Below are positions 6,327 to 30,987 of a stretch of 36,860 nt of DNA, piece by piece (within the stretch, counting starts at the first letter, position 1; each line of letters opens with the position of its first letter). The DNA is taken from IMG/VR virus record IMGVR_UViG_3300032562_000092, positions 1-36,860 of that record; one strand, 5' to 3'. This DNA comes from a virus. Below the pieces are notes generated by a model. It saw only the letters and a program-made list of their open reading frames with translations. It searched no databases and had not been told where the DNA came from. Both the position numbers and the translations under genes were made by a program.

Positions 6327-6920
6327 TTATATCCGTTGAAGGTCGAATCCGGCCGCAGCCTTGCCCGGCCAAAAGGTGTACCGGAATTCCTTGATCGAAC
6401 TTCCGCCTGTCTTGGGGTCGGCATTGATGCACAATCCTTTGGCAGCGGCAATCGATGCCTCACCCAGGTGGGTGGCAGGCCCTATATCGGCCACAACTGC
6501 CGAGACTCGGGCACCCGTGGATTGGCAAAGGATTTCGGCACGGCAGCCCAACACGATGCCCCGAGCCAGTCGTGCCACCGGCCCCGGGACAACGATGAAG
6601 GGAACCTGTTCGCTGTCGATGTATCGGTGCGGGTTGGTCGTTTCAAATTCCTTGTGCTGCAATGAAGTTGTGGAAATGTAAAAGCCCGGGCATGGGTCAT
6701 TGGCACCCTGCAGGACAGGATACCCTTCCTTGTCAGTGACAATTCCCCACCAGTTGCCGGGGTATCCAGCGTTCTCCAAATGATCGAGCCCTTGACCGTT
6801 GGGGCCATAGGCGCGTGGAGAACCGTCGGCATCGATGCAAAGTTCGGAAACGAATTGGACCGACCCATCCTCTGCCTGCATGATTGGCTTCCCGGCAATG
6901 GTGCAGACAAGGGTGCTCAT
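6327..6920 (-). CDS. GH75 (chitosanase)-like glycosidase, candidate endolysin
   Basis: The product has 197 residues when started at the ATG (6920-6918) that overlaps the stop of the upstream membrane-protein gene as ATGA. A longer frame exists but would lie inside that gene. The sequence follows the glycoside hydrolase family 75 plan: DADGSPRAYGP near residues 30-40, GLDHLENAG at 44-52, WWGIVTD, FYISTTSL, YIDSEQVPFIVVP, then VVADIGPATHLGEASIA at about 142-158. D30/D32, D145 and E154 are candidate catalytic or structural acids. GH75 enzymes cleave chitosan. In phages a related fold could cut partly de-acetylated murein. The place behind a holin-like gene favours a lysis role. No signal peptide is visible. 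Confidence 0.7.
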   Translation of the reverse strand: MSTLVCTIAGKPIMQAEDGSVQFVSELCIDADGSPRAYGPNGQGLDHLENAGYPGNWWGIVTDKEGYPVLQGANDPCPGFYISTTSLQHKEFETTNPHRYIDSEQVPFIVVPGPVARLARGIVLGCRAEILCQSTGARVSAVVADIGPATHLGEASIAAAKGLCINADPKTGGSSIKEFRYTFWPGKAAAGFDLQRI

Positions 6921-26452: not shown

Positions 26453-26704
26453 TTAGGCTGCAGGCAATGCAGAGCCGGGCGTCTCGGTGGCCGGAGTCGT
26501 GGCAGCTGCCAATGTGTCCTCGGTGGCCTGAACGCCTTCCTGAACAACCTCAGGAGTAACGACAGGTGCCTCTGATGCTGCTGGGGCATTCTGTGCCTCG
26601 TGATGACGGACAAATGCCTCGATGTGCTTCACAGCGTCATCGATGTCCTTTTTAACGGTTCCAAGGAATGCCTTGGCCTCGGCGGTGATGGTTTCTATGC
26701 TCAT
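26453..26704 (-). CDS. Small helical protein with Ala/Thr/Pro-rich tail
   Basis: The product has 83 residues. An amphipathic helix (about 1-38, ITAEAKAFLGTVKKDIDDAV) is followed by a low-complexity Ala/Thr/Pro/Glu tail. The ATG overlaps the previous stop as ATGA. It can also be reached by a -1 frameshift from the upstream gene at the A-runs ending at 26710, which would give a fused product. On its own it has no SD sequence at the usual distance (only AAGGGGA about 28 bases upstream). The function is unknown. Confidence 0.65.
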   Translation of the reverse strand: MSIETITAEAKAFLGTVKKDIDDAVKHIEAFVRHHEAQNAPAASEAPVVTPEVVQEGVQATEDTLAAATTPATETPGSALPAA

Positions 26705-27558
26705 GCGGTCTTTTTTTTGTTTTTTGCGTCCCCTTCTTTTTTCTCTGGATGGTGGGACAGGCCTTCCTGAGAAGATGCGTTTGCAATAAAATTTCCGGAG
26801 GACTGATCAGTCGCGGTTTTTGCCAATGCCGCCGGATCGACCCCCCTCCCCCCCTCCTTCGAGGTGTCGGCTGCCGTGTCCTGGTCGAATCCGGAGGGGT
26901 GGTTTGTATCCAGAGTTGTAGCCGGATGAACGTCATCTCTTTCGGATGCTGGAAAGATCACTGATAAATGATCAGAGGATGACAAATCGGCCGCCGGATC
27001 TGGCAGGGACGGCCGCGCTATTGAATCCAAATTCCCCGCCGCTGAATTGATTCCAGAACCATCCTGAACAAGTTCCACATCGATTACTGGAAGGTCATCC
27101 AGCATCCGCTCCAAACCTGCCGCAACTTGAGACTGCTCAATCTTCTCAACCCTTGCAGTGACGCCTCCGGTAAGCACTTGACCTTTATCAATCAGGATAC
27201 CGACGGCCATCGACAACTCACCTGCCTTAATGTCTCCGGCAGCAATCTTCTCCTCGAGGAGCTCGACACCCAAAGCAGCCACCTTCAAAGCACGGGCACC
27301 AAGATCTTTTCTATGTGTGTCAATAGTCGCACCTTCCCGCAGTTGCACCGCTTCGATCGTCCTGTGATGCAACCCGGTCAATCGCTTGATCTCACGAATG
27401 CCAGTTCCCTGACCCAGAAGTTGAACCGTGATCCGATAAAGATCTGGCCTTTGAGATAACAATCGTTCGCCAGTAGAAACACCCGTGAATGCCGGAGTGC
27501 CGACCTTATCGATCGACAAATCCTCCGCAGGAAATAGTTCCGAGTTCTCGGTACTCAT
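26701..27558 (-). CDS. Helix-turn-helix phage protein (possible terminase small subunit)
   Basis: The product has 285 residues when started at MSTENSELFPAEDLSIDKVG. This ATG is preceded by AGGG and overlaps the stop of a 26-codon gene (TGATG). A helix-turn-helix is seen at about 49-75 (GQGTGIREIKRLTGLHHRTI). A helical block follows with KVAALGVELLEEKIAAGDIK and GELSMAVGILIDKGQVLTGG, a pattern (IL-x-DKxxxLTG) seen in phage proteins with HTH starts. The last 130 residues are disordered and charged. It could be a small terminase subunit placed far from TerL, or a regulator. The coding sequence holds runs of six and seven G and two slippery A-runs near its end. Confidence 0.7.
   Translation of the reverse strand: MSTENSELFPAEDLSIDKVGTPAFTGVSTGERLLSQRPDLYRITVQLLGQGTGIREIKRLTGLHHRTIEAVQLREGATIDTHRKDLGARALKVAALGVELLEEKIAAGDIKAGELSMAVGILIDKGQVLTGGVTARVEKIEQSQVAAGLERMLDDLPVIDVELVQDGSGINSAAGNLDSIARPSLPDPAADLSSSDHLSVIFPASERDDVHPATTLDTNHPSGFDQDTAADTSKEGGRGVDPAALAKTATDQSSGNFIANASSQEGLSHHPEKKEGDAKNKKKTA
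26710..26725 (-). other. Candidate -1 ribosomal frameshift site
   Basis: On the coding strand the last codons read GAC GCA AAA AAC AAA AAA AAG ACC GCA TGA. This gives two in-frame heptamers, A_AAA_AAC and A_AAA_AAG. A purine-rich AAGGGGA sits upstream at roughly the distance of the stimulatory SD sequence in dnaX. A one-base backward slip reads on as GAC CGC ATG AGC and enters the next gene in frame, giving an HTH-protein/83-residue fusion. No downstream RNA structure was checked. Confidence 0.45.
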
Positions 27559-27638
27559 CACATTCTTGCCCTGTAAATACCCACCAAAAAAAAGAAAAGG
27601 GCGCCCAACAAACAAACATCGATGAAATCGTGACTCAT
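27558..27638 (-). CDS. 26-residue single-span membrane peptide
   Basis: The ATG (27638-27636) overlaps the stop of the excisionase-like gene as ATGA, and the TGA (27560-27558) overlaps the next start as TGATG. The frame therefore fits its neighbours on both sides, as real genes in this block do. It begins MSHDFIDV, has a membrane helix of about 14 residues (CLLGALFFFLVGIY) and ends RARM. It is far below standard gene-calling length. It might be a small membrane regulator, or a leader whose translation couples the next gene. No homologue can be named. Confidence 0.55.
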   Translation of the reverse strand: MSHDFIDVCLLGALFFFLVGIYRARM

Positions 27639-27826
27639 GCCATTCGTTCCTCAATGAACTTTTGAAGCGACGACTCCGGAAAACGAATATCCTGCTCGAG
27701 CCTGAGGACCTTTCCGAACTTACCGGCCTTCACATAACGAAGAACCGTGTTCCTATGAACGCCGAGTCGAGCGCATACGTCCTTTGTGCTTAGAAACCGC
27801 TCAGATACAAAATTTCCCCCTTTCAT
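27635..27826 (-). CDS. Excisionase-like MerR/HTH_17 protein
   Basis: The product has 63 residues. The segment ERFLSTKDVCARLGVHRNTV then LRYVKAGKFGKVLRLEQDIR and FPESSLQKFIEERM is the classic small winged helix of phage excisionases and AlpA-type regulators (HTH_17). It probably binds attachment-site DNA with the integrase and may also regulate early genes. The start overlaps the stop of a 39-residue gene (ATGA). It is encoded on the opposite strand from the integrase, about 2 kb away. Confidence 0.85.
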   Translation of the reverse strand: MKGGNFVSERFLSTKDVCARLGVHRNTVLRYVKAGKFGKVLRLEQDIRFPESSLQKFIEERMA

Positions 27827-28186: not shown

Positions 28187-28357
28187 TTAACGAAGAGCCA
28201 TCCGGTAACCGGGCTGACGACGTGCAGGCAAAGATCGATCGAGCCAGCCATTCTTGCGGCGGCTCACGAACACCGCTACGGCCGCCAGGATCTCCGCGGC
28301 CTCACGCCGCCCAGCAATAAGAATTGCTGCAAAAAGTGAAAGGCAGAGAGTAATCAT
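28187..28357 (-). CDS. 56-residue membrane-active-looking protein
   Basis: The ATG (28357-28355) overlaps the upstream stop as ATGA behind AAGGAGGC. The product has a hydrophobic start (MITLCLSLFAAILIAG) that could be one membrane helix or a signal sequence, a second mildly hydrophobic stretch (ILAAVAVFVS), and a basic Arg-rich end (SRRKNGWLDRSLPARRQPGY). A strong SD sequence supports translation. The function is unknown. Confidence 0.6.
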   Translation of the reverse strand: MITLCLSLFAAILIAGRREAAEILAAVAVFVSRRKNGWLDRSLPARRQPGYRMALR

Positions 28358-28368
28358 GCTGCCTCCTT
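28354..28368 (-). promoter_or_regulatory. SD/stop/start joint, copy 1
   Basis: The transcribed strand reads AAGGAGGCAGCATGA. A strong SD sequence is embedded in the last codons of the upstream gene (Lys-Glu-Ala-Ala-stop), and the stop overlaps the next start. Confidence 0.75.
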
Positions 28369-28533
28369 TTCAGATTCCTCCGAGGATTCTGTAATTTCTT
28401 CAGCGAGACGTTTCGTCAGGATCTGACGAATGATCGTTGAACGGTTTGTGCATTGTTGTTTTGCCTGCTCATCGAGCCACAGAACTAGATCCTGTGGCAC
28501 TCCGGAGGCCGCGATGGTGGTCGTGTTTGCCAT
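28354..28533 (-). CDS. Ribbon-helix-helix regulator, leftward (59 residues)
   Basis: The product begins MANTTTIAASGVPQDLVLWL. Its ribbon-helix-helix core is VPQDLVLWLDEQAKQQCTNR followed by STIIRQILTKRLAE (about 12-45), with an acidic tail ending EKEAA. It is the first gene of the leftward series and lies next to three palindromes. It probably binds them as a CopG/Arc-type dimer and controls both directions. Its length just misses usual cut-offs. The gene ends in the recurring AAGGAGGCAGCATGA joint. Confidence 0.8.
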   Translation of the reverse strand: MANTTTIAASGVPQDLVLWLDEQAKQQCTNRSTIIRQILTKRLAEEITESSEESEKEAA

Positions 28534-28556
28534 AAGTGTTTTGCTTACGGCGAAAA

Positions 28557-28644
28557 TCCTTAAAGGACATTTAAGGAATCTGCAAGAGAAATCCTTTAAG
28601 GAATTGCAAGGATTGTAATAAAGACTTTCAAAATCCTTAAAGGA
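28557..28644. promoter_or_regulatory. Operator array between divergent RHH genes
   Basis: Three perfect inverted repeats of the form TCCTT-N-AAGGA lie at 28557-28567, 28592-28602 and 28634-28644. Degenerate or half copies with AAGGA lie at 28567-28577 and 28608-28612, several at about ten-base steps. The 126-base gap also holds a possible leftward promoter: TTGAAA, 17-base spacer, TGCAAT on the minus strand. The third palindrome is 15 bases before the rightward RHH start. The layout is that of an autoregulated genetic switch. Confidence 0.75.
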
Positions 28645-28659
28645 TGGTATCTTGAAAGC

Positions 28660-28929
28660 ATGACAAAGAAAAACAGCAACATGGGGAAATCGTCCAAATT
28701 GGTTGCCACATCATTGGAATTGGATCTCGTTGCCCGGATCGATCAATTGGCACATCGAGATCACATCACCCGTGCTACATGGATGAGGGAAGCCATCATC
28801 CATGCCTGGAGAGAGTCCAAAGAATTTAAACGCACCCCATTGCATGGATACCTGACCACGCCCATCAGCATCCCAACGGCCCCGCTTTCAGAACCCAAGC
28901 AAACCAAAAAACAAAACGGCAAGGCCTAA
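28660..28929 (+). CDS. Ribbon-helix-helix regulator, rightward
   Basis: The product has 89 residues. After a Lys/Asn/Ser-rich start comes a ribbon-helix-helix core, KLVATSLELDLVARIDQLAH then RDHITRATWMREAIIHAWRE (about 13-52), and a basic, Pro/Thr-rich tail ending KQTKKQNGKA. It faces the leftward RHH gene across the palindrome array. It is the first gene of the plus-strand (lysogeny side) group with the integrase. It is a candidate prophage repressor. Confidence 0.8.
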   Translation: MTKKNSNMGKSSKLVATSLELDLVARIDQLAHRDHITRATWMREAIIHAWRESKEFKRTPLHGYLTTPISIPTAPLSEPKQTKKQNGKA

Positions 28930-28993
28930 TGACACCCTGTTATACCTATAGCAACGACCTGATTGATTCAAAGCTGATCCATTTCGAAATCAC

Positions 28994-29278
28994 ATGAACA
29001 AATACATTCAAATTCTTATCTGCATTTTACTTGGAGCGATTGTTTTAGGACTTTTGAGACTTCCAGGACGTTATCAAATCAGCACCGTGGAATATGCTTC
29101 CCCATTTAGAAAATCCTCTACTATTTCCGTATTATTGGACACTTCGACCGGACGGATCAGAAAACTCACGCAATTTGATGACTATTTAATCTGGTGGTCA
29201 CCAGAACCTACAAAATCAACGTGGGAATCTTGGAACACATCGAATTCCAAACAAACAACAACCAATTCCGTAAAATGA
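28994..29278 (+). CDS. Small membrane protein, lysogeny side
   Basis: The product has 94 residues. An N-terminal membrane helix at about 6-22 (IQILICILLGAIVLGLL) is followed by a soluble domain (YQISTVEYASPFRKSSTISV, DTSTGRIRKL, then FDDYLIWWSPEP) with a Thr/Ser/Asn-rich end. It is AT-richer than the late genes. Its stop overlaps the next start as ATGA. Between repressor-like gene and integrase it is a candidate lysogenic accessory gene (superinfection exclusion or host surface change). The function is unknown. Confidence 0.7.
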   Translation: MNKYIQILICILLGAIVLGLLRLPGRYQISTVEYASPFRKSSTISVLLDTSTGRIRKLTQFDDYLIWWSPEPTKSTWESWNTSNSKQTTTNSVK

Positions 29279-29550
29279 AATTCCTTACCTTTATCACCAT
29301 CCTTTCCGTAGTCGGCACAATTCATGCCCAAGTCGTCAACGGCCCCAACGGCAGCTACATTGTCCAGCCCGCCGGAAACGGCAACACATTGGTGACCGGC
29401 GACAACTCCAGCACCTACATTCAGCATACATGGAACGGGGTCAACATCATCAGTTCTGGATCTCAAGTCGACCAGGGCGCCCTGAATGCCGCGGCCTTAA
29501 TCGTCCCACCACCAAACTCACCGGCACCGATTGTTCCATCAAATCCCTAG
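29275..29550 (+). CDS. Small secreted protein, lysogeny side
   Basis: The product has 91 residues when started at MKFLTFITILSVVGTIHAQV, whose ATG overlaps the previous stop as ATGA. A clear signal peptide ends at about HAQ (19-20). The mature part is Asn/Gly/Ser/Thr-rich (NGPNGSYIVQPAGNGNTLVT) and ends in a Pro-rich tail (IVPPPNSPAPIVPSNP). There is no cysteine. It is exported to the periplasm or outside. It is paired with the preceding membrane protein and probably expressed from the prophage. The role is unknown. Confidence 0.7.
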   Translation: MKFLTFITILSVVGTIHAQVVNGPNGSYIVQPAGNGNTLVTGDNSSTYIQHTWNGVNIISSGSQVDQGALNAAALIVPPPNSPAPIVPSNP

Positions 29551-29811: not shown

Positions 29812-30987
29812 ATGAGCGCAAAAGTTGTCGGAAAATTCAAACATCAGGGCAAATCCTATAGTTTCTATCAGAAGACAGGAAACCCGAATCTCTACATCCG
29901 CATTCAGCATCAGGGGAAGCCCCGGTGGAAATGCCTTGACACCTCCGAGAAAAAGCCCGCCGCTATTCGAGCCGGTGCCTGGATTGATTCTTTGTTTGCC
30001 AGCAAGTGGGATGTTTTGGAGACCCTGAAGACCAGGAATGATTTTGCAACCATCGGCGAGATCACCGAAACCTTTCTGGCCAATGTCCGCCACCTTGGCA
30101 TCAAGCACGTCACGGCCCTCGGTTATGTGGTCAGTCTCAAGAACATTTTGTCCGATGCATTGGGCACCAATGATCCCGAATCCTTAAAATCGACCGTCCT
30201 GACAGGAGAGACATTGAATAAATTTGTGGCCGTATCGCGCCAGGCAGGGCGTCCGGATTGGTCGATTTCGGGTCAGATCGGGCAAGCCAGAAGCATTTTG
30301 AAGGAGCGCGAAGGCCGCATGGAGATTTACAGCGCACTCAAATTGCCGAACCTGACCAGTTGGAGAAATGCCAAGTGGGCATTTGCTGTCAATACGAAGC
30401 GGGGATTCGTTCCCTTCGCAACCCAGCAGGTCATTGATCTCGAGACCGCGGCAGCGCAGCTCTATGTCGATAGGAATCCTGTATGGATTGCATATACCCT
30501 GATGAGTTTATTCGGTCTTCGTAACAGCATGGTATTTAACCTCAAGAAGAGCGATTTCATTTTCGATGGCGATCAGATCAGATTCACGGTCAAGGGAGAT
30601 TATGCCGAGGCCAAGGCCGTCGAGCATACCATTTCCAGAGAGACCTATGAGAAAATCAGCACATTCTTTGACCAGGGCGAATATGTGGTGCCAGGGCACC
30701 AGACCGCCCGGAAGAAAATTTGCAATGAACGGATTTGTGCATTTATGAAGAGTTATGTGGATCGCACTGCAGAGGGAGAGCGCAAAAAGGCTTATTTACT
30801 CCGGAGACAGGCAGGAACAGTAAAAGCATATACTGAAAATATTTTTGCCGCTCAGGCCATGCTGGGTCACAAAAGCGTCAAGACCACCGAGAATGATTAC
30901 GGCCCCCGTGTGCTTCGCAGTGCCGGGATCTCACCCGACGACATACTCAAGTTTTACCGCATTGAGGAGAGACAGGCCGCGTCCTGA
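29812..30987 (+). CDS. int: Tyrosine-type integrase
   Basis: The product has 391 residues. An N-terminal arm-binding region (about 1-75) is followed by a SAM-like core-binding domain (75-190) and the catalytic domain. The active site includes R237 (LFGLRNSM), R331 in YLLRRQAGT, H353 in LGHKS and the nucleophile Y363 in NDYGP. In box II the residue before LLR is Tyr328 where most integrases have His. The length is typical. It is the last plus-strand gene, converging on the 30993-31220 gene. It recombines attP with a host site that cannot be identified here. Confidence 0.92.
   Translation: MSAKVVGKFKHQGKSYSFYQKTGNPNLYIRIQHQGKPRWKCLDTSEKKPAAIRAGAWIDSLFASKWDVLETLKTRNDFATIGEITETFLANVRHLGIKHVTALGYVVSLKNILSDALGTNDPESLKSTVLTGETLNKFVAVSRQAGRPDWSISGQIGQARSILKEREGRMEIYSALKLPNLTSWRNAKWAFAVNTKRGFVPFATQQVIDLETAAAQLYVDRNPVWIAYTLMSLFGLRNSMVFNLKKSDFIFDGDQIRFTVKGDYAEAKAVEHTISRETYEKISTFFDQGEYVVPGHQTARKKICNERICAFMKSYVDRTAEGERKKAYLLRRQAGTVKAYTENIFAAQAMLGHKSVKTTENDYGPRVLRSAGISPDDILKFYRIEERQAAS

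Follow-up and report, generated by a model that had tools for sequence, protein, structure and literature searches.

The window, which is the whole of an IMG/VR virus record of 36,860 bases, carries two small divergent genes with palindromes in the gap between them. This arrangement raises the questions of whether the region controls lysogeny with ribbon-helix-helix (RHH) proteins, and which of the two proteins reads the palindromes. The preliminary description regarded the region as a lysis-lysogeny switch that may rest on two competing RHH proteins.

The divergent gene pair and its intergenic region

DnaB helicase, a DUF1376/primosomal protein, an SU10-type major capsid protein and tail collar/fibre proteins are recognisable in the window by family matches. 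The RHH-R gene (28660-28929, plus strand, 89 aa) is transcribed toward a tyrosine integrase gene of the same direction (29812-30987, plus strand; PHROG 1, E 4.6e-13; Pfam Phage_integrase, E 6.6e-05). The RHH-L gene (28354-28533, minus strand, 59 aa) is the first gene of a leftward operon that contains replication genes and the gene of an excisionase-like HTH_17 protein (27635-27826, minus strand; HTH_17, E 9.8e-14), which scores above the cut-off of the NCBI excisionase model (TIGR01764, 29.6 bits versus 28.8). The layout is that of a switch, with divergent regulators, operators between them, and an integrase-side transcript facing an excisionase/replication-side transcript. The earlier statement that a CI/Cro-like HTH pair is missing can, within the reach of Pfam, be extended to the entire contig: no CI/Cro-type regulator is found among the 58 translated ORFs. 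The only DNA-binding regulators that Pfam detects among these ORFs are the two RHH proteins and the HTH_17 excisionase; HTH_3, Cro and S24 peptidase repressor families are not among the Pfam families listed, which include only HTH_17 and related models for the excisionase. An ant-like antirepressor is not found among the first 25 families listed per library, and the genes adjoining either RHH gene have no such match.

Both proteins match Pfam RHH_1 weakly and below its gathering score, with E-values of 0.0029 for RHH-R (predicted DNA-reading strand KLVATS) and 0.0098 for RHH-L (strand TTTIAASG). The RHH-R homologue of the relative L019 exceeds the gathering score (21.9 versus 20.5), and the RHH-L homologue of L041 reaches 20.4 bits versus the cut-off of 20.5. 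The monomer models of both proteins consist of an N-terminal stretch followed by two helices, with the strand unformed without a dimer partner, and the RHH-R model is poor (pLDDT 67). The structural neighbours of RHH-L are nearly all RHH proteins, and those of the two models are mostly RHH, with middling scores and Foldseek E-values that are not significant. Both proteins are assigned to the RHH group with reservations over the single-sequence scores.

The two genes diverge across a gap of exactly 126 bp (28534-28659), and the gap and the ORFs of 59 and 89 residues are exactly as described before. The contig of 36,860 bp contains exactly three copies of the palindrome TCCTTNAAGGA (TCCTT-N-AAGGA), at 28557-28567, 28592-28602 and 28634-28644, and all three are located in the gap. 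None of 100,000 shuffles of the 126 bp gives two copies of TCCTTNAAGGA, and 9 of 20,000 gap shuffles contain any 5-1-5 palindrome arm at least twice. The partial copies that had been reported at about ten-base steps are AAGGA half-sites at 28573 and 28608, exactly 10 bp past those of the first two palindromes. Operator O1 (28557-28577) consists of the palindrome TCCTTAAAGGA and the AAGGA half-site 10 bp on, and overlaps the putative leftward -10 sequence. O2 (28592-28612) consists of the palindrome TCCTTTAAGGA and the AAGGA half-site 10 bp on, and lies just upstream of the putative leftward -35 sequence. O3 (28634-28644) is the palindrome TCCTTAAAGGA and lies within the putative rightward promoter.

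Conservation and exchange of the pair

A search of viral contigs with either RHH protein gives ten other phages, and L041, added later, brings the relatives to eleven in all. Both RHH genes are present and divergent in 10 of the 10 phages found with either protein. The gene order is kept wherever the contigs reach: the genes for DnaB, the primosomal protein, 25892, 26701, the excisionase, 27939 and RHH-L run leftward, and on the other side those for RHH-R and the integrase run rightward and are followed by a leftward metallophosphoesterase gene. This arrangement is kept across considerable divergence, because the integrases of the type-A relatives are just 28-44% identical to that of the window over the matched parts. 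L033-L036, found with the RHH-R profile, were dropped because they match weakly over a short length and their context is unrelated. Scanning genomes with RHH-R detects no prophage, and RHH-R has no match in named phages. A genome scan with the metallophosphoesterase gives only one contig, of 7 kb and binned to a proteobacterial MAG, without the switch region.

The geometry of the operators is kept as well. The first two boxes are located 23-25 and 58-60 bases past the RHH-L start codon in eleven type-A phages despite their differing sequence. In the window, half-sites are found at 30, 40, 65 and 75; most other phages have them within 1-2 bases of these places, with common spacings of 10 and 35, and the second half-copies of L021 and L022/L024 are placed differently. 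Every phage compared has a strong O1 and a strong O2, and O3 is perfect in the window and degenerate in most relatives.

A survey blind to the RHH genes, anchored on the neighbour gene 27939 (alignment A5), gives 15 viral contigs, and a divergent pair of small genes occupies the switch spot in all 15 loci. Eleven of the 15 pairs are of the window's type, three are of a second RHH type with TGTGSCACA and one is of a probable third type with GTGCAC. The proteins of the second type, which is present in L004 (L042 of the survey), L005 (L043 of the survey) and L044, weakly match Arc- and CopG-like repressor families. TGTGSCACA occurs exactly three times, at matching places, in the stretches examined of L004 and L044. 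One of the three sites is located outside the gap, at the 3' end of the leftward RHH gene (6053 in L004; 3379, reverse strand, in L044). The third pair, with GTGCAC repeats, is that of L051; its leftward protein has weak RHH-type matches, and its rightward protein is RHH-like by eye and is confirmed by no library. L004 shares 96% identity with the window in DnaB and 80% in the integrase, but no nucleotide match between them is found over the RHH pair, and matches resume directly downstream. This loss of the match indicates a cassette exchange, as in immunity regions.

The RHH pair could instead form a secondary control region, like immunity I of phage P22, with an unrecognised protein elsewhere in the phage as the master repressor. 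Many of the contig's ORFs lack a family match, and the conserved gene 26701-27654 contains a possible HTH by eye. However, the position of the pair, exactly where the excisionase/replication operon and the integrase side meet, is the one expected of the main switch, and 15 of the 15 loci of the blind survey have either this pair or another pair in its place. A secondary role is therefore unlikely.

Covariation of the operators with the RHH-R strand

The half-site is AAGGA in the window, AATGA in L015 and L017, ACAGA in L016, L018, L019, L020 and L028, and AAAGA in L021, L022 and L024. As RHH-R strand the window has KLVATS, the AATGA phages have RLIATA or KLIATA, every ACAGA phage has TQVGFS, L021 has QHIGLT and L022/L024 have KLIACS. 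Within one gap the half-sites change in concert at fixed positions, and the intervening bases stay alike. The similarity of O1 and O2 correlates in Mantel tests with the identity of the RHH-R strand (r=0.71, p=0.0002), also when the rest of RHH-R is given (r=0.76, p=0.00015). The same tests show no correlation of the operators with the rest of RHH-R, with RHH-L or with three neighbouring proteins, and k-mer versions over the whole gap agree with this result. L017 and L020 provide the clearest pair: their RHH-R proteins are 96% identical in the 48 residues that follow the strand and share 0 of 6 residues in the strand, and their operators differ (AATGA versus ACAGA). The phage L041, which was newly found by the survey, has the strand KLIACS and AAAGA palindromes at offsets 37, 59 and 100, and its addition gives r=0.67 (p=0.0001). 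The 12 phages have common ancestry and fall into only five strand classes. L041 is a consistent, but not an independent, confirmation, because it belongs to the L022/L024 subgroup. The covariation suggests that RHH-R is the repressor that reads the palindromes, and is indirect evidence, for RHH-R only, of sequence-specific reading by the beta-strand.

In the preliminary description the two proteins may be competitors; on such a reading both would bind the same palindromes, each with its own preferences, in the manner of lambda CI and Cro. The operators lie between the two divergent genes, both proteins appear to be RHH, and at least one half of each palindrome retains outer bases that are common to most phages and could be read by RHH-L. 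However, the RHH-L strand TTTIAASG is nearly invariant in the alignment of the relatives while the operators change, the operators track the RHH-R strand only, and another conserved repeat is available to RHH-L. This inverted repeat, CATAAG-N7-CTTATG, spans the RHH-L start codon (28531-28549) and is a candidate RHH-L operator. It has 5 of 6 pairs in the window and a mean of 5.4 of 6 pairs in 12 phages, versus a mean of 1.8 and a maximum of 3.8 at control offsets; by eye, it is absent upstream of the second-type pair of L004. The repeat is probably the target of RHH-L, an RNA hairpin being the alternative. Competition of RHH-L for the palindromes is unsupported, because RHH-L probably reads the repeat over its own start codon, and there is little probability that both proteins share these sites. 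What is retained of the earlier proposal is a temperate-phage regulatory hub, as the layout kept in all relatives suggests; its element of competition is not.

Linked inheritance contributes to the correlation, because the DNA encoding the strand is located within about 200 bp of the operators, and the residues just before the RHH-R strand also segregate with the classes. If linkage were the only cause, a single recombining block would comprise the operators together with the DNA for the RHH-R N-terminus, without any recognition. This is very improbable. Linked inheritance does not by itself explain the concerted change of the half-sites amid alike intervening bases, palindromic operators without a reader would not be expected to persist, and the RHH-L coding start is equally close to the operators, yet uncorrelated with them. 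Least credible is that the pair serves as a toxin-antitoxin, partition or plasmid-type copy control module and not as an immunity switch: the best structural neighbours include CopG and antitoxins of the ParD, MazE and AtaR kind, but NCBIfam and PADLOC detect no toxin or defence partner beside the pair and give toxin-antitoxin and defence readings no family support, and the flanks are excisionase, replication and integrase genes.

Proposed control of lysogeny and related systems

A consensus scan detects no sigma-70 consensus promoter in the window, and the promoter positions given here are inferred from the comparison of the phages. The leftward promoter PL (28557-28585, minus strand), placed by eye in the aligned gaps, would consist of TTGCAG (28580-28585), a 17-bp spacer and TAAGGA (28557-28562). 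The rightward promoter PR (28626-28653, plus strand), placed by comparison, would consist of TTTCAA (28626-28631), a 16-bp spacer and TATCTT (28648-28653). By comparison across the phages, PL reads TTGCAA-17-TAAnnn with O1 on the -10 sequence, and PR has O3 in its spacer. L041 has TTGACA just before its O3, at the place that matches the putative PR of the window.

The window region is quite probably a temperate-phage immunity and early control region made from RHH proteins, in which RHH-R would repress PL and itself. RHH-R dimers would bind the 11-bp palindromes through paired beta-strands, with neighbouring dimers in tandem spaced by about one helical turn (10 bp). Binding to O1 and O2 would cover PL and silence RHH-L, the excisionase, the replication genes and the lytic genes beyond. 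Binding to O3 would limit the promoter of RHH-R itself, which may also drive the integrase gene. Since O3 is mostly degenerate, autoregulation would start only at a high repressor level, and tighter autoregulation is expected in the window, where O3 is perfect. RHH-R is thus proposed as a lysogeny repressor and autoregulator of Arc/Mnt-type fold that would work in the way of CI or P2 C. RHH-L, which heads the lytic operon, would probably control its own gene via CATAAG-N7-CTTATG, in a Cro- or Arc-like role. Differing combinations of strand and operator, together with exchanges of the whole RHH pair, would give separate immunity groups.

Additional features are found downstream of RHH-R. In the AAAGA group, more palindromes of the same type are located there (L041, reverse strand, at offsets 476 and 498 from the RHH-L start; L022 and L024, reverse strand, at 6667, near TTGACA), and they probably mark another promoter under the same repressor. 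A conserved micro-ORF (28929-28997, plus strand, 22 codons in the window) overlaps the RHH-R stop in the -1 frame. This stretch of about 20 codons (YTYSNDLIDSKLIHFEI in the window) directly follows the repressor gene, in the -1 frame in nearly all phages. It is also present in L004, L015, L016, L018-L022, L024, L028, L041 and L044, is kept after the unrelated RHH-R of L004, and has a coding pattern of differences (rates of 0.33, 0.20 and 0.53 at the codon positions). The copies in L004, L019 and L020 have no ATG, GTG or TTG start, which suggests -1 frameshifting or reinitiation at the stop overlap; by eye, no classical slippery heptamer before the RHH-R stop is common to the phages. The micro-ORF may belong to the switch system. 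Glycine/G-rich tracts are found near the RHH-R 3' end in L017, L018 and L020, with a run of about 18 G in L018, and may reflect either phase variation or an error of assembly. Between RHH-R and the integrase lie two small genes (28994-29278 and 29275-29550 in the window) that are found in several relatives and have no family match; by eye, one encodes an N-terminal hydrophobic segment and the other a signal-peptide-like start. They are candidates for surface or exclusion functions expressed in lysogeny.

The P2 C/Cox and lambda CI/Cro switches have divergent promoters, a lytic-side excisionase and several operators between the promoters, and the P2 repressor is encoded on the integrase side. 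The window resembles both in its putative divergent promoters with several operators between them and in its excisionase on the proposed lytic side, and P2 in its proposed repressor on the integrase side. However, the repressors of P2 and lambda are helix-turn-helix proteins, whereas the window has two proteins assigned to the RHH group and 11-bp palindromes in 10-bp steps. The region is classified as working like a CI or C switch, and as a member neither of the helix-turn-helix switches nor of P22 immunity I.

In P22, arc and mnt diverge, N-terminal residues set the specificity of Arc and Mnt, and the main switch is c2/cro. Immunity I contains Arc and Mnt, two small RHH repressors in one temperate-phage regulatory region; this region is a secondary one, in which the pair controls ant, an antirepressor gene (PMC2629481). 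The window likewise has two small proteins assigned to the RHH group in one probable temperate-phage control region, but its pair is located between the excisionase/replication operon and the integrase, and no CI/Cro-type pair is found. F55 of SSV1 is a small RHH protein that keeps lysogeny by binding tandem repeats at early promoters and its own promoter (PMC5569661), and resembles in this respect what is proposed for RHH-R. SSV1 differs in being an archaeal spindle virus with ATAGATAG tandem repeats, and a divergent RHH partner is not described in the text consulted (PMC5569661). YosL of SP-beta is a predicted Arc-type RHH protein in a temperate-phage lysis-lysogeny system; it is needed for induction, and the master repressor is the recombinase-derived MrpR (PMC10516654). 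In the window, in contrast, RHH-R itself is proposed as the repressor. The closest bacterial-phage case is thus P22 Arc/Mnt, and the closest RHH lysogeny repressor is F55.

RHH proteins are common in phages, and the main switch of tailed phages is usually described with helix-turn-helix repressors. No RHH master repressor of a tailed phage is found in the literature searched, outside which most subscription papers lie; the near cases in these papers are F55, from an archaeal virus, and Arc/Mnt, from a secondary region. It appears somewhat probable that the phages compared here represent a family of tailed phages in which a divergent RHH pair is the only master switch, a few strand residues set the immunity specificity and the pair is swapped as a cassette. 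Natural variation supplies matched strands and operators, so that the code by which RHH proteins recognise DNA and the way in which immunity groups arise become testable, and repressors become recognisable in uncultured phages where CI searches fail.
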